A DNA stretch of 64,000 bases, from positions 1-64,000 of the forward strand of contig JADGEI010000003.1 in assembly GCA_016744455.1 (NCBI GenBank). Direction: 5' to 3'. Under the pieces are notes generated by a model. That model had not been told where the DNA came from. It saw nothing but the letters and a program-made list of their open reading frames with translations, and searched no databases. Numbering within the stretch: position 1 is the stretch's first letter; the number at the start of each line of letters is the position of its first letter. Position numbers and translations under genes: made by a program. The DNA is from Alcanivoracaceae bacterium. GTDB taxonomy: Bacteria > Pseudomonadota > Gammaproteobacteria > Xanthomonadales > Marinicellaceae. Shown one piece after another: positions 5,486-49,887 of this stretch.

Positions 5486-5902
5486 TTAACCTTTAGAAAT
5501 GACTTCTCCTAGTTCTTCATTTGTCATGGCTTTACCATCTAGATTCCAAGTTCCATCAACGGCATGAGTCACATTAAAATAAATGTTGTCTTTTGGTTGT
5601 TTTCTACCAGATAATTGGTAAATCACATCTGTAGATTCTTTGGCTACACCAAGTTGTACTTCACGATCAATAAAGGCAAATGATGGTGTCTTGAATTCTA
5701 TCCATGCGCCGGAAACATCCTCTCCACCATAAAAGGTTGTTCCTTTTGGAAGGACTTGAACCATGGCTGTAATATTCGGCGTCATAACCTTATTTCCTGT
5801 CAATCCATGCCACTTCAGCATGATATCTGTTATTTGTTTTATCGCCTGTTTTTCAGTACCTTCTGGGATGACTCCTTCTGTTAAGTGTAATGATAATGGC
5901 AT
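5486..5902 (-). CDS. Tautomerase-superfamily protein
   Basis: A 138-residue protein starting MPLSLHLTEGVIPEGTEKQA, with Pro directly after the initiator Met. This Pro becomes the N-terminal catalytic base in the 4-oxalocrotonate tautomerase superfamily. The pattern (beta strand, helix with AIKQITDIMLKW, then ITAMVQVLPKGTTFYGG) fits the superfamily, though the C-terminal half is longer than in 62-residue 4-OT enzymes. No signal peptide, so cytoplasmic. AGGAG lies 9 nt before the ATG. It is the first gene after the divergent promoter carrying three palindromes, so it heads the TetR-linked operon. The substrate is unknown; the operon company suggests reactive carbonyl or enol compounds. Confidence 0.78.
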   Translation of the reverse strand: MPLSLHLTEGVIPEGTEKQAIKQITDIMLKWHGLTGNKVMTPNITAMVQVLPKGTTFYGGEDVSGAWIEFKTPSFAFIDREVQLGVAKESTDVIYQLSGRKQPKDNIYFNVTHAVDGTWNLDGKAMTNEELGEVISKG

Positions 5903-17355: not shown

Positions 17356-20300
17356 TTAATCTTCAAAACCATTAGTAAATATATTCACAGCTGTTATTGA
17401 TCCAAATTCAAATGCACCTAAATCTCTATTATTTATAGAATCAAAACTTCTTTGGTCGGCTAAAGTTGCATTAACATCTCCTTGATCTATGGCATCACTA
17501 CCCACTAAAAGTGCATGGGTTTTTACACACCCGCCATCAGCTAATTTGACTATGCAAAGATTATCTTCTAAATTTGGGTTGATATTGAGGTTAGATGTAA
17601 GTGTTGTACCTGGGCAACTGTGATTGATGTCATCGGATAAATTATTGCTGCCATTGAGTGTCCCGTTGTTTTGAATTAAACAGGCATCTATTAGTGAATT
17701 GTTTATTGAACTGATGGTTCCAGTAAACGTATGAATGCCAATTCCGTTATTAACAAATGTGCTATTTGATATGTTAGTTATTATTGATTCATTGCTGATT
17801 GCATGACTATTAGTATTACCAGAAAACGTATCGTTTTCAATAGTGGTGATAATAGCTCCGGTTATATTATAGATACCCGCGCCAGCAAACACGCTGTTAT
17901 TAGTATCAAAGGTATTTCTGGCAATGGTAGTAATCGTGCCATTAGAAATATTGGCAATACCGCCGCCGCCAAAAAAGGCATTATTTAAGGTAAATTCATT
18001 GTTAACAATACTTACAATCTGACCATCATCATTTGCCAGCCCACCACCAATAAAATCGGGCACATCATTTTGCTCGAATATACTGTTGTTTATATGTGAA
18101 ACTGTGCCTTGATAATTATAAATCCCTCCACCAGTTGCCGCTCCATTTTTAGAAAACACTGAATCATTCACCGATAAACTACCCTGATTGTAAATCCCAC
18201 CTCCATAGAATTTATGTACTTGACTGTTTTGGCTAACACATCCATTGGCTATGATGATAGTGCTTAAGTCAAGTGAACCCGAATCTGCAATACGCAACAA
18301 CCTGAATCTATTAGGGTCCTCAGGTGCACTGCCCGAAAGAAAGCCGCAAGTTAAATTGGTATCGCGTGATAAACTAAAACCCATACCATTAATAATCAAC
18401 GGAGATGTGATGGCAGGAGTTCCTGTTCGACCTTTGGAAGCAATATCATGAAAGATTCCGGTATCAATGTTTTCAAATAGCTGTGAAAGTACAATGTCAT
18501 TGCCTAAGTTAATGGTGTCTGTTGTTGTATTGTTGGCATTGGCGCAGGTTATGGCTTGTCTTAAATCAGTCGCGTTGGTAACTGATTCTGTAAAAGTAGA
18601 GTTGATATTAATTTGTAACTGACTGCATTGTTGTTCAGATGTTAAAAACTCAAAAGCACCGGCATCCCTCAATCCATCTATAATGACAAAATCGCGTTGG
18701 TCTGTATTATCAGTAGTCGCATTGATGAAATTTATCGCTTCGCTAGTTGCTAGTAATGCATGCGTTTTATTGCAACTCCCATCTGCCAGTACATTTTTGC
18801 ACCCATTATCTGCTAAATCACTCACTGTGTTGGCATTTAAATTCGTCGCAATATTCACGCTACAATTATTACTCTGACTAATATTGTTAGATATATTGTT
18901 ATCACCCTGCACATCACCAAATCCCACAGACCCACAGTTTGCTCTTGTACCTATATTATTATGAAACAATGAATTATTTAATTGGCTTAATCCACTTGAT
19001 GTATAAATTGCAGCGCCTTCTGAGCTCGCTTCGTTTTTTGAAAAAGTAGTATGTTTAATGTCTTGAAATGAACCAGAGTTGAAAGCGGCACCACCATCGG
19101 TTGCCTTGTTTGTTGAAAGTGTACTGTGCAATACCAACCCAACGCTCCCCTCATTGTAGATTCCTCCACCATCAATTGATGCTTCATTATTTGAAATGGT
19201 GCTTTTTATAATATGTGAGATTTGAGATTTGTTATAAATTCCACCACCATCAACTGCTGATGTGTTACCTGTAATACTGGAATTGACAATATCTGCAATG
19301 CTGCTTGTAGAATCATTATAAATTCCACCACCCTTGGCATTGCTAACTGATATAACAGAATTATCTTTAATAATGCTATTTTCTATCAAGGTAATTGTAG
19401 CCAAAGTATTTTCTATACCACCACCGTTAAACCCTGCGATATTATTAGAAATAACCGTACTATCCAACAAAGAAATAATGGGTGTTATACCCCCACTAGC
19501 TTTTGAATTGCTGATCCCGGCACCAAAATCTGCTTGATTATTTGTTATGGTACTGTTGGTTATAGCTAACTGGCCATTACTTAAGATACCAGCACCACGT
19601 GATATTGATGAATCAGAATCAACACAACCATTTTTCAGGCTTATATTATTAAAATGGGCGATGCCAGAACTGGTGACTTTGGCAATTCTAAATTCAGTAT
19701 TAACCTCTACATTATCAATCTCACAAGGATAATTAGGGTTTCTTTGTAAAGTATGACCATTACCGATAATAGTCATTGGTGTTTTTATCAAAACTGTACC
19801 AGTAGCACCCTGACCATCGTTTGCAACATATTGTTTATCTAGGTTAATATCCGCAATTAGTTCTATATCATCAGCTGTTTGGTCATCAAGATTAGCACAA
19901 GTAATGGCCTGATTTAGTTGATATGAGTTGGATACTTCAGCAGTAAAACCCGCAACAGGATCATCATTTATCACTATGCCTACTTGGGTACATTGTTGCC
20001 CACCTGTTAAAAATTCATAGGCACCAATATCCCGACGAATATCAATGTTATTAAACCCTCTTTGGTCAATGCCAATGATTGCGACAGCAGGATTTATTGC
20101 TTGACTGCCAACTCCTAAGCCTTGGGTTTTGATACAAGTGCCATCGGCCAGTGGTGTCATACATCCATTATCCGCTAAAGGCAAGAGGTTAATTTGAGAA
20201 GATTGGCTACCTGAACAACCACCACTGCTGTTATCAGTCATACCGATATTGCTGATAAAACTGCCGCCATCATTGAAGCATTCATTTGTGCCACCACCAT

Positions 20301-21255
20301 GTTGACTAAAGAGAAAAGCTAGAATATCAACTGATCCAGTTGATGTGTTGAAAATGGCACTGCCATTATTGCTTGCGCTGTTATTTGCTAAGGTATTATT
20401 TAGAGAGTTATTTACCTTTGCATTGTCATTATAAATTGCACCGCCATCTCCATTAGATGCGTCATTATCTGAAAAAGTAGTATTTATCAAGCTCACGGTT
20501 GAGTTTTGAATACCTCCTGCCCCATCAATATTAAATACACCACCACCGTGATTACCAGCAATATTGCCTTCAAATGTACTACTAGATATATTTGTGGTGC
20601 TGGTAAAATTACTTAAGCCTGCACCGCCAAAGTTTGTCGTATTATTTTTAAAATAACTATTGACCACTGTACTTGAAGCAAAAGTGGTATCCATACCACC
20701 ACCACGAAATTCAGCAGCATTATTTGTAAATATTGAATTTCTGACACTTAAAGTGCCACCAAAATTAAGAATACCGCCACCTATCTTACTATCGGTTGTC
20801 ATCCCATCGGCACAACCATTTTTTAGAATTATATTTTGTAAATCCAAACTGCCAGGGCTTGCTATTCGTAATAAACGGAACTCGCCTGCTTCTTCTGTCA
20901 AATTCAAAGCACATTGAGATGAGTCATCACGTTCTATTGTATATCCATTTCCTTCAAGAAGTATTTGAGATGTTATCGCGGGAGTTCCTGTACGACCAAA
21001 ACTGGCATCATTTTCATAGTGATCATTTAATATGGTGTCTTCCGTTAATTCGATAATATCACCACCATTATCAGCATCGTCTCCTGTCGTACATTGCCCT
21101 ACAGCAGTATTGCTATTGGCTGATAATATAGCGTCAATTATCGAACAATTATTGTCTACAGTGATATTAGCAGCTTGTGTAAAGCCTGTTATCATAAACA
21201 ATAGAGTGCCTGTTAACTTATAGTGGGTTTTATAATTTAAATGTCTTTTTTTCAT
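17356..21255 (-). CDS. Giant secreted beta-helix protein with three anchor-Q-like modules and GFE tail
   Basis: A 1299-residue protein with a signal peptide (LTGTLLFMITGFTQA). Three homologous modules of about 400 residues follow. Each starts with an N-D-x-C-S-L/A-x-x-x-I-type segment, runs through many right-handed beta-helix turns (GGGIYN, NSTITNN, SFTNN-like steps of about 22 residues) and closes with a D-N-G-C...A-D-G-x-C-x-K-T / DQR-F / RD-x-GAYEF block. That closing block matches what is annotated as a choice-of-anchor Q domain. The chain ends NIFTNGFED. It resembles polymorphic outer-membrane / adhesin-type surface proteins. The stop codon abuts repeat copy R2. It lies, with the DUF3592 gene, between rnr and rlmB. 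Ligand and attachment mechanism are unknown. Confidence 0.85.
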   Translation of the reverse strand: MKKRHLNYKTHYKLTGTLLFMITGFTQAANITVDNNCSIIDAILSANSNTAVGQCTTGDDADNGGDIIELTEDTILNDHYENDASFGRTGTPAITSQILLEGNGYTIERDDSSQCALNLTEEAGEFRLLRIASPGSLDLQNIILKNGCADGMTTDSKIGGGILNFGGTLSVRNSIFTNNAAEFRGGGMDTTFASSTVVNSYFKNNTTNFGGAGLSNFTSTTNISSSTFEGNIAGNHGGGVFNIDGAGGIQNSTVSLINTTFSDNDASNGDGGAIYNDNAKVNNSLNNTLANNSASNNGSAIFNTSTGSVDILAFLFSQHGGGTNECFNDGGSFISNIGMTDNSSGGCSGSQSSQINLLPLADNGCMTPLADGTCIKTQGLGVGSQAINPAVAIIGIDQRGFNNIDIRRDIGAYEFLTGGQQCTQVGIVINDDPVAGFTAEVSNSYQLNQAITCANLDDQTADDIELIADINLDKQYVANDGQGATGTVLIKTPMTIIGNGHTLQRNPNYPCEIDNVEVNTEFRIAKVTSSGIAHFNNISLKNGCVDSDSSISRGAGILSNGQLAITNSTITNNQADFGAGISNSKASGGITPIISLLDSTVISNNIAGFNGGGIENTLATITLIENSIIKDNSVISVSNAKGGGIYNDSTSSIADIVNSSITGNTSAVDGGGIYNKSQISHIIKSTISNNEASIDGGGIYNEGSVGLVLHSTLSTNKATDGGAAFNSGSFQDIKHTTFSKNEASSEGAAIYTSSGLSQLNNSLFHNNIGTRANCGSVGFGDVQGDNNISNNISQSNNCSVNIATNLNANTVSDLADNGCKNVLADGSCNKTHALLATSEAINFINATTDNTDQRDFVIIDGLRDAGAFEFLTSEQQCSQLQININSTFTESVTNATDLRQAITCANANNTTTDTINLGNDIVLSQLFENIDTGIFHDIASKGRTGTPAITSPLIINGMGFSLSRDTNLTCGFLSGSAPEDPNRFRLLRIADSGSLDLSTIIIANGCVSQNSQVHKFYGGGIYNQGSLSVNDSVFSKNGAATGGGIYNYQGTVSHINNSIFEQNDVPDFIGGGLANDDGQIVSIVNNEFTLNNAFFGGGGIANISNGTITTIARNTFDTNNSVFAGAGIYNITGAIITTIENDTFSGNTNSHAISNESIITNISNSTFVNNGIGIHTFTGTISSINNSLIDACLIQNNGTLNGSNNLSDDINHSCPGTTLTSNLNINPNLEDNLCIVKLADGGCVKTHALLVGSDAIDQGDVNATLADQRSFDSINNRDLGAFEFGSITAVNIFTNGFED

Positions 21256-22916: not shown

Positions 22917-23144
22917 GTTTTCTTAGACCTAGTAATAGGATTGAAAACACATCGTGACTTCTCTATCGGGATTTGGTAATTAACTATATAAACCAGCCCA
23001 ACAATCAAAGAAAACTCTTTTCGCATAAAAAAATATTATCATTAGCACAATTTTTTCTAATTAACAGGAATAAATGCGACTTTGCTCACATTTTATGCTA
23101 TTTTATCATGGCAATATAAGCTGGCTGAATTATACAATAATAAA

Positions 23145-23173
23145 TTGACACAAATTGTCATCACAAATAACAA
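23145..23173 (+). promoter_or_regulatory. Sigma-70-type promoter of the subtilase gene
   Basis: TTGACA (23145-23150), a 17 bp spacer, then TAACAA (23168-23173), giving a transcript start near 23180. It lies 59 bp before the chosen ATG (23232) and inside the longer open frame that begins at 23082, which therefore is not the coding start. The spacer contains TTGTCA, making a small inverted repeat with the -35 (TTGACA-N4-TTGTCA). Confidence 0.6.
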
Positions 23174-23231
23174 GAATCAGCACATGTTGTACACACAAAC
23201 TTTCAAAAAACAATTAGAGGAGATTCAATTC

Positions 23232-25988
23232 ATGTTGAAAATGAATAAACTGGCATTGTCAGTTGTAACCGCGCTTGCGCTCACTACTTCTGCAACAGCT
23301 GCTACACTAGCGGCAAATGCTAACATAAATAATGACAATAATCCTGTTCAAGCCAATCCATTAGCACCGGGGATAATTATAAAATATAAAAGTGCTAACA
23401 AATCACAATCCATTAGGCAGTCTGAAGTAAGAGCCACAGAAATGGGCAAGGCTTATGGAATTGATATACGTTTTAAACGTAAGATGTCCGGAAATGCTGA
23501 AGTACTTACAATTGATCAAGTTTCATCTAAATCAATGGGAAAAAACAAATTAAAGGACATTGTTGCTCAGTTAAATCAAAGAACCGATGTTGAATATGCT
23601 GAAATCGATGCATGGATGATTCCCTATGCAACCCCAAATGATACCGCTTACAACACACAATGGCACTACCACGAATCGGCAGGAGGTATGCGCCTTCCGG
23701 CAGCTTGGGATACGACTACTGGCTCATCTAGCGTTACTGTTGCAGTTTTAGATACTGGTTATCGCCCTCATTCAGATCTCGCGGGAAATGTTATTGGTCA
23801 ATACGATATGATTTCGAGCTCATCTGTTGGTAATGACGGGAACGGCCGGGACTCAAACGCACAAGACCCTGGTGACTGGACAACTGCTGATCAATGTGGA
23901 ACTGGATCAAGTGCAAGTGATAGTTCATGGCATGGAACACATGTTGCAGGAACAGTAGCTGCTGTTTCAAACAATAACAACGATGTGGCAGGCGTTGCAT
24001 GGAATGTGGGCCTAGTTCCTGTTCGTGTTTTAGGCACTTGTGGTGGCTCATTATCAGATATTGCTGATGGTATTCGATGGGCTGCTGGGTTAACTGTATC
24101 AGGTGTACCTACAAACAATAATCCTGCACAAGTTATAAATATGTCACTGGGATCTTCTCAACCATCTTCTTGTAGTTCAACCTATCAAAATGCAATTAAT
24201 GCTGCATACAATGCTGGCACAACCATTGTTGTTGCAGCAGGAAATGACAACAGTTCATCTGGTTATCCACCTGCAAACTGTAATAATGTTATTTCTGTAG
24301 CAGCAACTAATCGTAATGGAGGCAGAGCCTACTATTCTAACTTCGGTTCAACCATTGATGTTGCCGCTCCTGGTGGAGACGGATGTAATCCAACCGGTGA
24401 AGGTGAGCCAACTTCATTATCTGATTGTGAAGGCAATGTCTGGAATGAAAGTAACATGATTCAATCTACTCACAATTCTGGAACATCAACACCTGCTTCT
24501 GATACCATTGGCGCATTGCAAGGGACTTCTATGGCTGCGCCTCATGTCGCTGGCCTTGCAGCATTAATGTATTCGGTTGATTTAAATGCGACACCTGCAG
24601 AAATTGAAAGCACCATGAAGTCAACGGCGAGGTCTTTTCCTAATGTAAGTTCTCATCAATGTACAACCTCAAATTGTGGTGCAGGAATAGTTGATGCTAA
24701 TGCTGCAGTTGATGCCATGGGCGGTACTACACCTCCACCAAGCAATAATACGTTAACAAACGGTGTTGCAGAAACCGGTTTATCGGGATCTACAGGAAAT
24801 GGAGTAAACTACACCATGGATGTACCATCAGGAGCAAGTAACCTAGCATTCAATTTAACTAGTATGACAGGTGATGGTGATTTATATGTTAAATTTGGCT
24901 CTGCTCCAACCACATCAAGTTATGATTGTCGTTCGTGGAATGGTGCTGGTCAAGATGAAGTATGTAATATTAGTAGTGCTCAAGTAGGTACTTATCACGT
25001 GCTAGTACATGCATATGCTGCCTATAGTGGAGCAAGCTTATTAGGTAGTTACACAACAGTATCTCCAAATATTGATCCTACGGCTGCCTTTACTTCAAAT
25101 TGTACCGATCTAAGTTGTAGTTTTGATGGCACTGGAAGTTCAGATAGTGATGGTTCAGTTGCCAGTTATTCATGGTCATTTGGTGGAAGTGGTTCTACAG
25201 CTTCGAACACTTATGGCAGTGCAGGAACATATAATGTTACCTTAACTGTTACAGACAATGACGGCGCTACAGATAGCGTGACTCATTCAGTAACAGTAAC
25301 AGAGCCACCTGTTGCAAATAATGAACTAACTAATGGCGTAGCAAAAACAGGCTTATCGGGTTCCAAAAATTCTCAACAAGAATTTACCTTAGCAGTACCT
25401 GCTGGAGCAAGTGGTTTAAGTTTTGTTATGAGTGGTGGTAGCGGTGATGCTGATTTGTATGTGAAGTTTGGTTCTGCGCCGACAACATCTAGTTATGATT
25501 GCCGTTCTTGGACATCTGGCAACAGTGAAACTTGTGACATAAGCAATGCACAAACAGGCACCTATTATGTCATGATTAATGCCTATAGTACTTTTAGTGG
25601 AGCGAGTTTAACAGGCAGCTTTACAGCAGGTGGCGGAAGTCAACAAGCCGTATTTACCAGTGAAACCAATGTAAACATTCCTGATAACAACCCAACTGGC
25701 GCAACAAGTAACATTAGTGTTAATAGAACGGGAAATGCAGGAAATGTTAAGATTACTTATAGCATTATTCATACCTATCAAGGTGATTTAACGGTGAATT
25801 TGATTGCACCAAATGGTGGTACAGCAACTCTTAGATCTCCAAGTGGTGGTGGTACCAACAACATCAATGAATCTAAAACTATTGATGCAAGTTCTTCTGA
25901 TGCCAATGGCACTTGGGGGCTTCAAGTAATTGATGGAGCTGGAGCCGATACAGGTTATATCGATTCATGGAGTATTGAGTTCTTATAA
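23232..25988 (+). CDS. Secreted S8 subtilisin-like serine protease with PPC, PKD and P domains
   Basis: Start at 23232, with GAGGAG eight to ten bases upstream and a signal peptide (MNKLALSVVTALALTTSATA) directly following; 918 residues. After an I9-type propeptide come the catalytic motifs VAVLDTGYRPHSDL (Asp174), WHGTHVAGTVAA (His234) and GTSMAAPHVAGLAAL (Ser433). Then follow a PPC domain (GDGDLYVKFGSAPTTSSYDC), a PKD domain (YSWSFGGSGSTASNTYGSAG), a second PPC with the same signature, and a C-terminal proprotein-convertase P domain (VNIPDNNPTGATSNISV, HTYQGDLTVNLIAPNGG). This is a typical type II secreted protease of marine gammaproteobacteria, and gsp genes are 5 kb away. It lacks both GlyGly-CTERM and GFE tails. 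Confidence 0.95.
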   Translation: MLKMNKLALSVVTALALTTSATAATLAANANINNDNNPVQANPLAPGIIIKYKSANKSQSIRQSEVRATEMGKAYGIDIRFKRKMSGNAEVLTIDQVSSKSMGKNKLKDIVAQLNQRTDVEYAEIDAWMIPYATPNDTAYNTQWHYHESAGGMRLPAAWDTTTGSSSVTVAVLDTGYRPHSDLAGNVIGQYDMISSSSVGNDGNGRDSNAQDPGDWTTADQCGTGSSASDSSWHGTHVAGTVAAVSNNNNDVAGVAWNVGLVPVRVLGTCGGSLSDIADGIRWAAGLTVSGVPTNNNPAQVINMSLGSSQPSSCSSTYQNAINAAYNAGTTIVVAAGNDNSSSGYPPANCNNVISVAATNRNGGRAYYSNFGSTIDVAAPGGDGCNPTGEGEPTSLSDCEGNVWNESNMIQSTHNSGTSTPASDTIGALQGTSMAAPHVAGLAALMYSVDLNATPAEIESTMKSTARSFPNVSSHQCTTSNCGAGIVDANAAVDAMGGTTPPPSNNTLTNGVAETGLSGSTGNGVNYTMDVPSGASNLAFNLTSMTGDGDLYVKFGSAPTTSSYDCRSWNGAGQDEVCNISSAQVGTYHVLVHAYAAYSGASLLGSYTTVSPNIDPTAAFTSNCTDLSCSFDGTGSSDSDGSVASYSWSFGGSGSTASNTYGSAGTYNVTLTVTDNDGATDSVTHSVTVTEPPVANNELTNGVAKTGLSGSKNSQQEFTLAVPAGASGLSFVMSGGSGDADLYVKFGSAPTTSSYDCRSWTSGNSETCDISNAQTGTYYVMINAYSTFSGASLTGSFTAGGGSQQAVFTSETNVNIPDNNPTGATSNISVNRTGNAGNVKITYSIIHTYQGDLTVNLIAPNGGTATLRSPSGGGTNNINESKTIDASSSDANGTWGLQVIDGAGADTGYIDSWSIEFL

Positions 25989-42945: not shown

Positions 42946-45858
42946 ATGAAACACAACAATTTTTCCAAGTTCTCAAAAACCCTAATCAAGACAACATTCT
43001 TGATTGGTGCTTTGGGAATATTTATCAATACAAGTGCTAGTGCTCAAGATCCAATTACAGCACCGGGCCTTATGAACCCGGCTGAAGTTCTATATCCAGA
43101 AACTTCAGTGCCAACAGTTAAAGCTTCATCCATTGCAGATATGGCCTATATGTATGGCTATTTACACGCAAAGGACCGCCTTTTCCAAATGGATTACACC
43201 CGTAGACTTGCAAATGGTACAGTTTCTGAGTTAGTTGGCCCTCCAGGACTATCAACCGATATTCAACTACGAACAATTGGATTTGCTCGTGCGGCTTTAC
43301 GTTCATATATAGCTGCATCTGAACAAACTAAAATAGTCCTTCGCTCTTACACTAATGGTGTCAATGCATGGTTAGCAACAAATTCATTACCTGTCGAGTA
43401 TGCTGGGTTAGAAATATCCACTGTTGAAAGGTGGTCACCAATTGACTCTTTAGCAATTGCCAAGCTTGTTGCCTTTCAATTATCCAATGATTTACAAGAA
43501 ATCGATTGGACTATTGCTATAGGCACCATGCAAGAAGTTGGGGCTGCTGCTGGATTTGATGGTACAGCTCTATTTTTAGAAGACCTTTATCGTTCTGCTC
43601 CACCTGATGATCGCGTTACAGTACCAGGTTTCTTAGAATCAATTGGCGGTGTTGTGCTTAATAAATCAAATAAAATAACAACAAATATTGATGTTGAATT
43701 ATTAAAAAACTTCACTCAATACTCTCAGGTTGATGTGAATTTAGCAAAAACAATTGCCAACAATTGGTCCGCTACTGAAGACCTTAATAAGCTTAGAAAT
43801 GATGGTGTTAAAGATATTGGCTCAAATGTGTGGGCAGTTTCTGGGGAACACACAGAAAGCGGCTATCCAATAGTAGCAAACGATCCACATTTAGCTTTAG
43901 ACACTCCATCAGTCTTTTATCCAGTTCATCTGTATGCAGAAAATGAAGGTGTTGTTGAATTTAATGCTGCGGGTGTTGGTTTTCCTGGAGCACCTGTCAT
44001 TGCCCAAGGGTGTAACCAAACCCTATGTTGGGGCAGTACCGTACACCCAGTTGATGAAACAGATTTTTATTTTGAAGACATAAGATCCAATCTATTTGGG
44101 TTACCTGCCTTTACTGTATTTAATGGTGTTGAAGAGCCAATTCAATATATTTTCCAAGTATATTATGCCAACCAAATTGGTGATGGTATTCAAGATAACA
44201 TTGAAAATCAGCGCGTCGGCTATGATGCAGGTGGTATCACTTATATCATCCCAAGAAGAAACCATGGACCAATATTATCAGTAGATAGTGCAAACAACCG
44301 TGCCGTCAGTATGCAATATACAGGTTTTAGTGCTACTCAAGAAGCTCAAGCATTCTTTGATATGGCGACAGCAAATGACATATTTGAATTTCGCCAAGCA
44401 TTAACTAGCTTTGATGTGGGTTCACAAAATTTTGGTGTGGCTGATATTTATGGCAATATTGCTTACTATACTGGTGTAGAAGTACCCATACGTGAAGATT
44501 TACAAACATTAAATGCACCTGATGGTGTACCTCCTATGTTTATCCGCGATGGAACAGGTACTCATATGAACGAATGGATGCCAGTGAGTAATCCGCAAGC
44601 CAACCAAGCAGAACCACATGAGATTATCCCTGAAGCAGAGATGCCTCACTGGGAAAACCCTGCTCAAGGTTGGTTTTCAAATGCTAACAACGATCCAATT
44701 GGCGTATCACTAGATAATAATGTTTTAAATCAACTACGTCCAGCTGGTGGATTGTATTACATTTCCCAAGGCGGTTATTCAACCTATCGTATGGGCAGAA
44801 TCAATCGTTTGATGGAAGATGCAATTGCTGCTGGCAAGGTTAACAGTACTGATTCTAAAAATTGGCAAGCAAACAACCAATCCATGGATGCTGAATTAAT
44901 CATGCCTCATATTATGACAGCATTTAACAATGCTGCTGGCGAAGGAGCTTGGCCAGGTATCCAACAATTCTTAGCTGACCCTCGTGTTTTAGCCACCATA
45001 GAAAAATTTGGTACATGGGATTATAGTATGCCAACAGGTATAACCGAAGGTTATGACTATGGCGACAATCCCTTTGCATTAGGCGGCCCAAGCGAAATGG
45101 AAATAAACTATTCTGTTGCTGCAACCATCTATTCTACTTGGCGCTCAATGGCTATTCAAAACACTATTGATGCAACCATGGCTGGTGTTGATGCCGCAAT
45201 TGGGCAAGATTTATTAACGCCACAGTTACCGGGTAGTAAGCAAGCATTCAATGGTTTCAAGAATTTGCTAGATAATTTCGACACTGCTCATGGTGTTGGT
45301 GCATCGGGTATAAATTTCTTTACCAACCCAGCAGCTCCTACTCCTGAAGATGCACGAGACTTTATTATATTAGCTAGCCTAAAACAAGCACTAGATCTTC
45401 TTGCAAGTGATGAATTCGCACCTGCTTTTGCTAACTCAACAAATATTATGGATTACCGTTGGGGTAAACTACACCGAATTACATTCACACATCCTTTAGG
45501 CGCTAGTTTAAGTGTACCAAATGGTTTATTTGGTTTTAGTACTGTTGCTGGCTTGGAAGGTATTCCAAGAGGCGGCGGTTACCAAGTTTTAGATGCATCA
45601 GGACATAATGTTAGAGCTAACTCGTTAAACGGTTTTATGTTTGGGAGCGGTCCAGCGCGTAGGTTTGTTGGCTTAATGACTCCTAATGGACCTGTTATCG
45701 ATCAAGTCACGCCTGGTGGACAAAGTGGTGTTATTACTACAGAAGTACAATACGTTAATCACCTATATTCATGGGTAGTAAACTCCTATTTGCCTTTGTT
45801 CTTAGATATCGACTTAATTGACGCTATTGCTGTTGCAAGGCAAACTTATGAACCTTAA
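42946..45858 (+). CDS. Penicillin acylase-family N-terminal-nucleophile amidohydrolase
   Basis: A 970-residue exported protein with a signal peptide (FLIGALGIFINTSASAQ). The alpha-chain region contains YGYLHAKDRLFQMDYTRRLA and GTVSELVG; self-processing is expected at KDIG-SNVWAVSGEH, which makes Ser293 the nucleophile of the beta chain. VANDPHLALDTPSVFYPVHL and the later GCNQTLCWGSTVH are typical beta-chain motifs. Family members cleave amide bonds of beta-lactams, acyl-homoserine lactones or other acyl amides in the periplasm. Substrate preference cannot be told; quorum quenching is one possibility. A strong terminator follows at 45887-45920. Confidence 0.92.
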   Translation: MKHNNFSKFSKTLIKTTFLIGALGIFINTSASAQDPITAPGLMNPAEVLYPETSVPTVKASSIADMAYMYGYLHAKDRLFQMDYTRRLANGTVSELVGPPGLSTDIQLRTIGFARAALRSYIAASEQTKIVLRSYTNGVNAWLATNSLPVEYAGLEISTVERWSPIDSLAIAKLVAFQLSNDLQEIDWTIAIGTMQEVGAAAGFDGTALFLEDLYRSAPPDDRVTVPGFLESIGGVVLNKSNKITTNIDVELLKNFTQYSQVDVNLAKTIANNWSATEDLNKLRNDGVKDIGSNVWAVSGEHTESGYPIVANDPHLALDTPSVFYPVHLYAENEGVVEFNAAGVGFPGAPVIAQGCNQTLCWGSTVHPVDETDFYFEDIRSNLFGLPAFTVFNGVEEPIQYIFQVYYANQIGDGIQDNIENQRVGYDAGGITYIIPRRNHGPILSVDSANNRAVSMQYTGFSATQEAQAFFDMATANDIFEFRQALTSFDVGSQNFGVADIYGNIAYYTGVEVPIREDLQTLNAPDGVPPMFIRDGTGTHMNEWMPVSNPQANQAEPHEIIPEAEMPHWENPAQGWFSNANNDPIGVSLDNNVLNQLRPAGGLYYISQGGYSTYRMGRINRLMEDAIAAGKVNSTDSKNWQANNQSMDAELIMPHIMTAFNNAAGEGAWPGIQQFLADPRVLATIEKFGTWDYSMPTGITEGYDYGDNPFALGGPSEMEINYSVAATIYSTWRSMAIQNTIDATMAGVDAAIGQDLLTPQLPGSKQAFNGFKNLLDNFDTAHGVGASGINFFTNPAAPTPEDARDFIILASLKQALDLLASDEFAPAFANSTNIMDYRWGKLHRITFTHPLGASLSVPNGLFGFSTVAGLEGIPRGGGYQVLDASGHNVRANSLNGFMFGSGPARRFVGLMTPNGPVIDQVTPGGQSGVITTEVQYVNHLYSWVVNSYLPLFLDIDLIDAIAVARQTYEP

Positions 45859-47345: not shown

Positions 47346-47777
47346 TTATTCCATACCTGGAAAAGAACTAACCTTTTTTACTTTTAAATCTGGAAAAGAA
47401 CTGACAACCTGCACCTTAAAATCTGGAAAACTATCCACTTCTTGCCATTGACCACAATTGCTCGGGAAAGAACTAACAAATTCTACATTTATATCTGGAA
47501 ATGAACTTACATATTGAATGGTTAGGTCAGGAAATGAGTCGACAAACTGGACTTTCCCATAGAGGTTAAAGCCTTTTTTGCGACAACTTGGTTTAGAAGA
47601 GTATGAGTTGGGTTTTTTATTTGCTTTTGCACTTGGACTTGATGACCCACCCATGACAGCCGCGATTTTACCAATATCGGAAAAACTTGCCGCTCTGGTT
47701 CGACTAGGTTCTATCACAATAGCCAATATCAAAGTGATTACTACAACTACAATTATTTTAATTTGTTCTGGATTCAT
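47346..47777 (-). CDS. Exported or anchored protein with six SFP beta-repeats
   Basis: A 143-residue protein. An N-terminal hydrophobic stretch (IIVVVVITLILAIVI) is a membrane anchor or signal. After a Ser/Lys-rich linker with Cys65, six SFP triplets occur at residues 81, 92, 103, 116, 127 and 138 (spacings 11, 11, 13, 11, 11). Each is embedded in a V-x-x-V-D/S-SFPD-x pattern such as VQFVDSFPDL and VQVVSSFPDL. Cys108 (SNCGQWQEV) sits in the central 13-residue step. This is a regular all-beta repeat. I recall similar SFPD-repeat proteins being labelled as '7(1) septoil knot' domain proteins, but could not check this. Function unknown. It is divergent from recG. Confidence 0.75.
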   Translation of the reverse strand: MNPEQIKIIVVVVITLILAIVIEPSRTRAASFSDIGKIAAVMGGSSSPSAKANKKPNSYSSKPSCRKKGFNLYGKVQFVDSFPDLTIQYVSSFPDINVEFVSSFPSNCGQWQEVDSFPDFKVQVVSSFPDLKVKKVSSFPGME

Positions 47778-47832
47778 ATTTATTTCCCTTCAATTTATGT
47801 TATCCTAAAAATATACATCATCACAACTGCAA

Positions 47833-49887
47833 ATGCAACTAACAGAACTAAAAGGAATAGGCGAAAAGACAGCTAAAAAATTAACATTACTAGGAATCGA
47901 ACAAGTCAATGACTTGCTTTTTCATTTGCCGCTACGTTATCAAGACAAAACTAGAATCACCTATATCTCTGATCTTTCGATAGGACAAACAGCTCTTGTT
48001 GAGGGCGAAGTTATAAAGACTTACCTAATTAATTCACGTAAGCCCATGCTAGTTTGTGAAATTGACGATGGTACTGGAACTCTTGCTTTAAAGTTTTTTA
48101 ACTTTTACCACTCTCAACGACTAAAAATGAAAACAGGTAGTAATATACGCGCATATGGCGAAGTTCGTCTCGGCAAATACACGATTGAGATACTGCATCC
48201 AGAATACCAACATTATGGTGAAAAAACTTTACCATTGGAAAGCTCGCTAACTGCTATATACCCAAAATCAGAAGGCATCAACCAAAGTACAATTCAAAAA
48301 GCATTGAACCAAGTATTATTGTTACTAGACAGAAAAGAAATCAAAGTTGAAGAGTTTTTGCCAGAACATATATTAACAGAACAGCAACTTCCAAACTTAA
48401 GCCAAGCTCTACACTATGTACATAAGCCTCCAGCCGATGCTGACACCAATGCTTTAATTGCTGGTACACATACCTATCAGAAGCGCTTAATATTAGAAGA
48501 AGTGCTAGCACATTTATTGGCTATGAAGCAGCTTAAGCAAAAAACGCAAGAGCTCTACGCTCCAGAATTACCGATTGAAAAAAAGCACATATACGAATTC
48601 TTAAAACAATTGCCATTTGAACTAACCAACGCACAACACCGAGTAATTAAAGAAATCCATCAAGACATCGCAAATAATCACCCGATGCAAAGATTAATTC
48701 AAGGTGATGTTGGTAGTGGCAAAACTGTCGTGGCTGCCATTGCCATACTAGCAGCTTTTTATCAAAATCACCAATCAGTTATGATGGCGCCAACAGAAAT
48801 TCTCGCAGAACAACACCTTAACACGTTAAAGACCTGGTATAGAAGTGATGAGATTGTATTCCTATCTGGTGCCATTAAAGGCAAAGCAAGAATAGAAGCA
48901 TTAAAACAAATCAAACACGGTGTTCGAATCATCATTGGAACACACGCTTTATTTCAGAAAGATGTTGAATTTAATGCACTAGGTCTTGTTATTATTGATG
49001 AACAACACCGTTTTGGCGTACACCAAAGACTTGCGTTACGTAGTAAAGGCCAATTTGAAGCCTTACAACCCCATATGTTAATTATGACAGCCACACCCAT
49101 CCCACGAACGTTAGCACAAACTGCATATGCCAATTTAGATATTTCAATCATTGATGAATTGCCACCCGGCAGACAAGAAACCTCAACACTCGTGATTTCC
49201 AATAGTAAATTACCACAAATTGCCGAACGCATTAAAACCAATTGCCAAAAAGGTGCGCAAGCCTATTGGGTTTGCACTCTAATTGAGGAATCAGAAGTAC
49301 TTCGAGCAAAAGCTGCTAACGATACTTTTGAAGAGTTACGCCAATGGTTTCCTGAACTACGTATTGGTTTGGTGCATGGAAGACTTAAATCCGCTGAAAA
49401 ACAATCCATTATGGAGCAATTTAAATCTCATAAATTAGATTTATTAATTGCAACAACCGTTATTGAAGTTGGTGTTGATGTCCCTAATGCGAGTTTAATG
49501 GTAATAGAAAATGCAGAAAGATTAGGTTTGTCTCAATTACATCAATTACGTGGTCGTGTTGGACGTGGTAATGCCAAGAGCCACTGTGTACTTATGTACC
49601 AGGCGCCTTTGGGTGATGTAGCAAAAAAACGATTAGACATCATGCGAAGTACTACAGATGGTTTTATCATAGCTAAAGAAGACCTTAAAATTCGCGGAGC
49701 GGGCGAATTACTCGGTAGTAAACAGAAAGGCAGTGTTCAATTTCGATTAGCTGATTACGAACGTGATAAAAACATATTCCATTCAGCACAAAAACTAGCA
49801 GCTGAGCTAATCATCAACCACCCACATATTTGTCAAAAGATTATTGACCGCTGGATTACCAGCAATGATGAAATTTCTAACGTTTGA
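47833..49887 (+). CDS. recG: ATP-dependent DNA helicase RecG
   Basis: A 684-residue superfamily 2 helicase. An N-terminal helix-hairpin region (LKGIGEKTAKKLTLLGIEQV), the wedge OB-fold (LVCEIDDGTGTLALKFFNFY), then helicase motifs: Q/I region LTNAQHRVIKEIHQDI, Walker A GDVGSGKTVVA, DEQH box VIIDEQHRFGVHQR, MTATPIPRTLA, TTVIEVGVDVPNASLMVIEN, and QLRGRVGRG; the TRG-like C-terminal LKIRGAGELLGSKQKG follows. RecG reverses stalled replication forks and processes branched DNA. Length and motifs are complete. The gene appears to stand alone between two minus-strand genes. Confidence 0.97.
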   Translation: MQLTELKGIGEKTAKKLTLLGIEQVNDLLFHLPLRYQDKTRITYISDLSIGQTALVEGEVIKTYLINSRKPMLVCEIDDGTGTLALKFFNFYHSQRLKMKTGSNIRAYGEVRLGKYTIEILHPEYQHYGEKTLPLESSLTAIYPKSEGINQSTIQKALNQVLLLLDRKEIKVEEFLPEHILTEQQLPNLSQALHYVHKPPADADTNALIAGTHTYQKRLILEEVLAHLLAMKQLKQKTQELYAPELPIEKKHIYEFLKQLPFELTNAQHRVIKEIHQDIANNHPMQRLIQGDVGSGKTVVAAIAILAAFYQNHQSVMMAPTEILAEQHLNTLKTWYRSDEIVFLSGAIKGKARIEALKQIKHGVRIIIGTHALFQKDVEFNALGLVIIDEQHRFGVHQRLALRSKGQFEALQPHMLIMTATPIPRTLAQTAYANLDISIIDELPPGRQETSTLVISNSKLPQIAERIKTNCQKGAQAYWVCTLIEESEVLRAKAANDTFEELRQWFPELRIGLVHGRLKSAEKQSIMEQFKSHKLDLLIATTVIEVGVDVPNASLMVIENAERLGLSQLHQLRGRVGRGNAKSHCVLMYQAPLGDVAKKRLDIMRSTTDGFIIAKEDLKIRGAGELLGSKQKGSVQFRLADYERDKNIFHSAQKLAAELIINHPHICQKIIDRWITSNDEISNV

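Follow-up and report, generated by a model that had tools for sequence, protein, structure and literature searches.

A six-repeat protein encoded next to recG in a gammaproteobacterium: an almost certain member of the Q9PR55 family of knotted proteins, predicted to be exported and membrane tethered

The SFP gene and its genomic neighborhood

The window, i.e., the whole stretch of 64,000 nucleotides analyzed here (contig JADGEI010000003.1, positions 1 to 64,000), carries on its minus strand, at positions 47346 to 47777 (stop codon included), the gene of a predicted tethered protein of 143 amino acid residues with six SFP repeats. This is a real, well-formed gene, and its homologs in four congeners share both its start and its architecture. 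An AAGGG sequence at 47786 to 47790 on the same strand, 8 nt 5′ of the ATG codon, was noticed by inspection and could serve as the ribosome-binding site. The neighboring recG gene (47833 to 49887, plus strand) is transcribed divergently across a 55-bp gap. An earlier sequence-only reading of this locus had given the correct coordinates and no strand, which is added here.

The same divergent recG gene is found next to the SFP gene in all five carriers within the genus, with a variable gene on the other side. Among the six congeners without the SFP gene, recG is present in four, each time with different upstream genes. In one of the genomes without an SFP match (G007), a thioesterase gene ends ∼14 bp before recG, whereas in another congener (G010) the thioesterase gene and recG flank the SFP gene, so the recG locus exists both with and without it. 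The loci L171 (without the SFP gene) and L173 (with it), bounded by the same thioesterase gene and recG, form a natural congeneric pair. No neighboring gene is conserved across phyla, and the SFP gene is therefore tied to no particular pathway. The most frequent neighbor cluster, seen at 12 of 97 loci, was considered as a functional clue and rejected: the four members read are diverse response regulators, which belong to a large superfamily. The other neighbor clusters are mostly confined to one genus or one phage group.

The tRNA and Rfam scans of the window gave no matches. Elsewhere in the window, an open reading frame (ORF) at 17356 to 21255 (minus strand) encodes a 1,299-residue protein without a Pfam match at an E value of 1e-5; it is built of three long units that resemble one another and are rich in GGGI and F..N motifs, and by eye it looks like a beta-helical surface protein. 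The plus strand encodes a subtilase with PKD, PPC, and P domains (23082 to 25988) and, past MAPEG and MarR genes, a leader-bearing protein of the penicillin amidase family (42946 to 45858).

Architecture of the encoded protein

The SFP triplets start at residues 81, 92, 103, 116, 127, and 138, the positions listed in the sequence-only reading. In 100,000 shuffles of each, no more than three triplets were obtained for the whole protein and no more than four for residues 61 to 143, against the six observed. Their symmetric 11-11-13-11-11 spacing, which spans a repeat core of residues 81 to 140 (47358 to 47537, minus strand), also stands as described, but its center does not fall on Cys108: the midpoint is 110.5, between Gln110 and Trp111. 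Twenty of 33 residues are identical between the segments 75 to 107 and 110 to 142, and the six repeats can be read as two sets of three. Its only Cys residues are Cys65 and Cys108, and Trp111 is its sole Trp. The Cys108 codon (47454 to 47456, minus strand) lies in the central insert, directly ahead of the invariant Trp111. Cys65 (codon at 47583 to 47585, minus strand), with which Cys108 is jointly conserved, had gone unmentioned in the earlier reading.

Ahead of the six-repeat domain (residues 65 to 143; 47349 to 47585, minus strand) lie a hydrophobic, signal-anchor-like predicted helix (residues 6 to 22; 47712 to 47762, minus strand) and a fast-evolving linker rich in Ser, Lys, and Ala (residues 23 to 64; 47586 to 47711, minus strand), in which the AlphaFold2 confidence (pLDDT) falls below 50 at residues 23 to 56 and 58 to 61. 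The helix extends over residues 3 to 21 in the model, and mean hydropathy reaches 2.75 over residues 6 to 24, so that the word “anchored” in the sequence-only reading was apt as a prediction. The charges flanking the helix (Lys7 before it, Arg26 and Arg28 after it) are ambiguous, and the predicted orientation therefore rests on the relatives of the protein. Among 98 family ORFs, 90 have a hydrophobic stretch ahead of the domain by a criterion of hydropathy only (14 residues with a mean of at least 1.8), and in 36 of these 90 it lies more than 20 residues from the domain; the other eight, read by eye, have short hydrophobic leaders below this cutoff. Some long ORFs at G+C-rich loci (e.g., L079 and L081, among the matches listed) were taken as artifactual upstream frame extensions and not as domain fusions. 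The form with an anchor and a linker is found in the genus of the window and in several Marinicella relatives, while other Marinicella have a short leader; secreted and tethered forms thus both occur within one bacterial family. Judging from these features, the window protein is very likely exported and held at the membrane.

Relationship to Q9PR55 and fold of the domain

A phmmer search of the PDB matched residues 76 to 141 of the window protein to residues 27 to 83 of the Ureaplasma protein Q9PR55 (UU089.1; PDB entries 8iwa, 8iwb, 8iwc, 8jrm, and 8w68) with an E value of 5.9e-10, and a profile of 42 rows matched the same protein with an E value of 6.7e-16; the only other matches listed in the PDB sequence search had E values of 0.87 and 0.93. 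The AlphaFold2 model, built from the window protein and 41 relatives, has a mean pLDDT of 74.7, with values of 93, 94, 92, 89, 94, 94, 91, and 79 in successive ten-residue blocks of the domain from residue 71 on, and contains strands at residues 74 to 78, 85 to 89, 96 to 100, 110 to 113, 120 to 124, and 131 to 135. In this model, the domain is neither a plain solenoid nor disordered. In a Foldseek search of the PDB, it matched Q9PR55 with a probability of 1.00, a best E value of 1.1e-5, and a TM score (by target length) of 0.63; four chains of Q9PR55 were found at E values of ≤4.4e-5 and nothing else below an E value of 4. VIA-align superimposed residues 67 to 142 of the model on residues 13 to 84 of the Q9PR55 chain with a Z score of 7.5 and an rmsd of 2.9 Å over 66 aligned residues. 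A fold search of a viral library listed 27 matches, none of them at an E value of ≤0.001 (best, 0.41).

According to PMC9278004, Q9PR55 is predicted to form a 7_1 knot with a knotted core of residues 27 to 83, and its homolog P73136 (112 residues, 48% identity to Q9PR55), assigned there to the same family, is predicted to form a 5_1 knot. The 7_1 architecture has been confirmed by crystallography, according to PMC13352647. The window protein is almost certainly a member of this family, to which the protein with the tightest known knot belongs. The two proteins share homologous repeats with SFP or SFPD motifs; Q9PR55, at 89 residues, differs in a center that is shorter in the alignment, and features found in addition in the window protein are a membrane helix with a linker, a regular set of six repeats, and the conserved Cys pair. 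The homology to Q9PR55 and the likeness of the model to its crystal and NMR structures lend good support to knotting, which the sequence-only reading had guessed, and the window protein is very probably knotted. An rmsd of ∼3 Å and a TM score of 0.63 would leave room for a crossing number other than that of Q9PR55.

No family of Pfam (at E values of up to 1) or NCBIfam matched the window protein, and thus neither database gave it the label “7(1) septoil knot” that had been suggested for such sequences. We take this label to belong to Pfam family PF19647, here named DUF6150. Among the hits in open-licence PMC literature, the term “septoil knot” occurred solely in a paper on soft-matter rings. 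Pfam searches with 11 relatives gave only weak, scattered matches (best E value of 0.0017, in two of the 11), which were disregarded.

Members of PF19647 resemble the SFP proteins in their small size, apparent export, six repeats, and G-x-W center but have a repeat period of ∼13 instead of 11 and lack the SFP motif. Five PF19647 loci (L155 to L159) look like a 13-residue-period version of the six-repeat, G-x-W-centered plan, and L160 appears intermediate by eye. PF19647 has no match in the genome of the window at the curated cutoff. It does co-occur with the SFP gene in six of 36 genomes holding the latter (the set drawn from 36 of the 80 genome loci), which shows that they are distinct genes. 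An alignment of the SFP and PF19647 profiles kept the repeat register over 65 columns with a score of 15.4 (P = 0.037), compared to ≤10.7 in all 11 scrambled controls (one reversed and ten shuffled), but the hhalign P values of 0.0034, 0.44, and 0.037, depending on the alignment, are not convincing as homology, and AlphaFold2 modeled a DUF6150 relative with low confidence (pLDDT of 42.6), too low for a fold search. A fold shared by DUF6150 and the SFP domain is plausible.

Conserved Cys pair and constraint on the domain

The homolog search returned a wide family in which Cys65 and Cys108 occur together in most members. The alignment comprises 98 rows, namely, 97 distinct relatives and the window protein, and omits L001 to L022 and L028 (the window itself, near duplicates of later loci, and a fragment) as well as rows scoring below 90 bits. 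The core from Ser81 to Pro140 is 60 residues long in all 98 rows. SFP is present at all six sites in 40 rows, at five sites in 28, and at fewer in 30, and conservation reaches 1.00 at Val79, Asp84, Trp111, Asp119, and Phe139. Both Cys65 and Cys108 are found in 85 rows, neither in 12, and a single one in one row. The 13 rows without the full pair correspond to three changes on the tree, which points to few independent events rather than 13. These figures supersede a first regular-expression count over 80 sequences (73 with both residues, 3 with the first only, 3 with neither, and 1 unscored); in L093, L111, and L123, which were mismatches of that count, the Cys sits elsewhere.

Between the window gene and those of the four congeners, dN is 0.066 to 0.075 for the domain and 0.39 to 0.58 for residues 1 to 64, with dS mostly saturated, and the computation supports purifying selection acting on the domain. 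The joint conservation makes a disulfide between Cys65 and Cys108 likely, although it is at present a putative bond. The constant core length, the joint Cys pattern, and the hydrophobic N termini together suggest an exported and probably disulfide-stapled domain.

Phyletic distribution

A scan of 84,980 species genomes yielded 389 stretches that fit the pattern; 341 of them encode relatives, and the 80 best of these 341 were retained. Groups named in the record titles include Gammaproteobacteria (Marinicella), Campylobacterota (Sulfurovum), Bacteroidota, Cyanobacteriota, Myxococcota, Leptospiraceae, Ignavibacteriota, Alphaproteobacteria, and Acidobacteriota, with many of the records being metagenome bins, in which binning errors are possible. 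The SFP gene was found in 27 of 61 close relatives, 5 of 11 congeners, and 7 of 397 genomes of the phylum (the window's own genome being included in each of these counts), as well as in 35 of 250 genomes of the order. The family is thus a wide but patchy, accessory trait. In the tree, built from 79 columns and 98 rows and weakly resolved elsewhere, the group of four that includes the window protein joins two Sulfurovum bins (support, 99/82), and all of these fall inside otherwise gammaproteobacterial rows (support, 99/96). Such a placement of Sulfurovum suggests either transfer between phyla or misbinned contigs.

Copies on phages and plasmids

With the alignment as a query, relatives were found to be encoded on 17 viral contigs; a single-sequence query of the viral collection gave 17 stretches that fit the pattern, none of them confirmed, and the collection of annotated phages gave no match to the window protein. 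Residues 61 to 142 of the latter matched positions 21 to 102 of the 103-position profile of phrog_6462 (E value of 1.1e-24), a phage family of unknown function that was also matched by each of the 14 viral records tried (14 of the 17 viral loci). Both contain the domain, and the window copy is set apart by its membrane anchor and linker. Nine of the 17 viral contigs (L110 and L113 to L120) share a gene order in which the domain starts 69 to 72 bp after a small gene, and in L110 the SFP copy is surrounded by baseplate genes. On the annotated Leptospira weilii plasmid NZ_CP092209.1 (10767 to 11081; L179), the copy is part of a Mu-like baseplate operon; only 3 bp separate it from the gene before it, and it has a 4-bp overlap with the baseplate J gene. 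Copies of this type carry a leader peptide inside the baseplate operon, where an exported protein is unexpected. The divergent copy at 5887 to 6237 of L121 has Mu-like baseplate genes on both sides, one of them hub-like, and is oriented opposite to them; its central Cys is shifted and its first Cys is missing. In L122, the copy is opposite to an Rz-like spanin gene that adjoins an endolysin gene.

Leader peptides are present on the phage copies among the matches listed, and these copies are read as accessory cargo. The tight packing in the Leptospira-type elements leaves open that the copy could belong to the late program there. In open-licence PMC literature, including the accessible parts of PMC9278004, PMC13352647, and PMC11223836, nothing was found on the function, the tethered form, the Cys pair, or the prophage copies of this family.

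Proposed role and alternative explanations

Considered as a whole, the data are probably best explained by an exported, membrane-tethered protein of the Q9PR55 family that may serve as a non-enzymatic module of the cell envelope. Its N-terminal helix would act as a signal anchor and place the domain in the periplasm, and the fast-evolving, flexible linker would hold the domain off the inner membrane. The domain itself, modeled as six short beta-strands with three in each of two similar halves, is homologous to the solved knotted fold, and a disulfide formed in the periplasm between Cys65 and Cys108 would close a covalent loop of 44 residues across the initial half of this entangled core. Such a domain might function, more speculatively, as a very stable binding or shielding module and not as an enzyme. 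The near-invariant positions are repeat residues and not an isolated polar set, which argues for the non-enzymatic reading, and a binding or shielding role in the envelope is put forward tentatively. It is more doubtful, if conceivable, that in the mainstream of the family the Cys65-Cys108 loop, closed over the first three repeats, locks the entangled core, with the last three repeats winding through or around it and untying from the N-terminal side being blocked after export. The gene is an accessory one, which some close relatives have and others lack and which prophages carry in some cases.

The prophage copies could also be given the leading part. The protein would then be a prophage-derived exported factor that alters the envelope, e.g., by blocking the entry of other phages, and the chromosomal copies would be retained cargo. 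The 17 viral contigs, the copies in baseplate operons (Leptospira weilii), the opposite-strand copies in L121 and L122, and the leaders are consistent with such an origin, which is nevertheless unlikely, as most relatives lie outside viral contigs, no phage genes are among the examined neighbors of the window copy, and the annotated phages gave no match to the window protein. A structural part or chaperone of a Mu-like tail baseplate, which later became a stable scaffold in bacteria, is far less probable. The signal-peptide-like leaders on the phage copies would be unexpected for virion parts, and the copy in L121 is on the opposite strand, even though, in this second Mu-like element, it adjoins a hub-like baseplate gene and the Leptospira-type operons are tightly packed.

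Two further alternatives concern the domain itself. A simple beta-solenoid or prism without a knot, with no more than local resemblance to Q9PR55, would agree with the moderate TM score (0.63) and rmsd (∼3 Å), and PMC9278004 describes differing knot types within the family. Since the sequence homology spans the knotted core, the PDB fold search gave no other confident fold, and knots are generally kept among homologs (according to PMC9278004), this alternative appears highly improbable. Many inhibitors are found among proteins that are small, stable, exported, and disulfide paired. Accordingly, the domain could be a periplasmic inhibitor or ligand binder directed at one particular small molecule or protein instead of acting as a general shield, a reading that agrees with the occurrence of secreted and tethered forms within one bacterial family. 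No partner gene is conserved, however, and the variable positions are scattered over the repeats, so a dedicated target of this kind seems a rather unlikely explanation. A tethered, non-enzymatic envelope module of the Q9PR55 family is the preferred reading.

Implications

The role of protein knots has yet to be explained, and studies of the most complex knot concern one mycoplasma protein. If the Cys65-Cys108 loop does lock the core as outlined above, the knot would be a selected, covalently locked trait of a mobile envelope protein that crosses phyla and is also carried on Mu-like prophages. The family supplies many natural versions of the domain, with or without the Cys pair and in secreted or tethered form, around a core of constant length. 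Congeneric strains that either have or lack the gene at one and the same locus would allow a comparison bearing on the purpose of a deep knot, its export, and its folding outside the cytoplasm.
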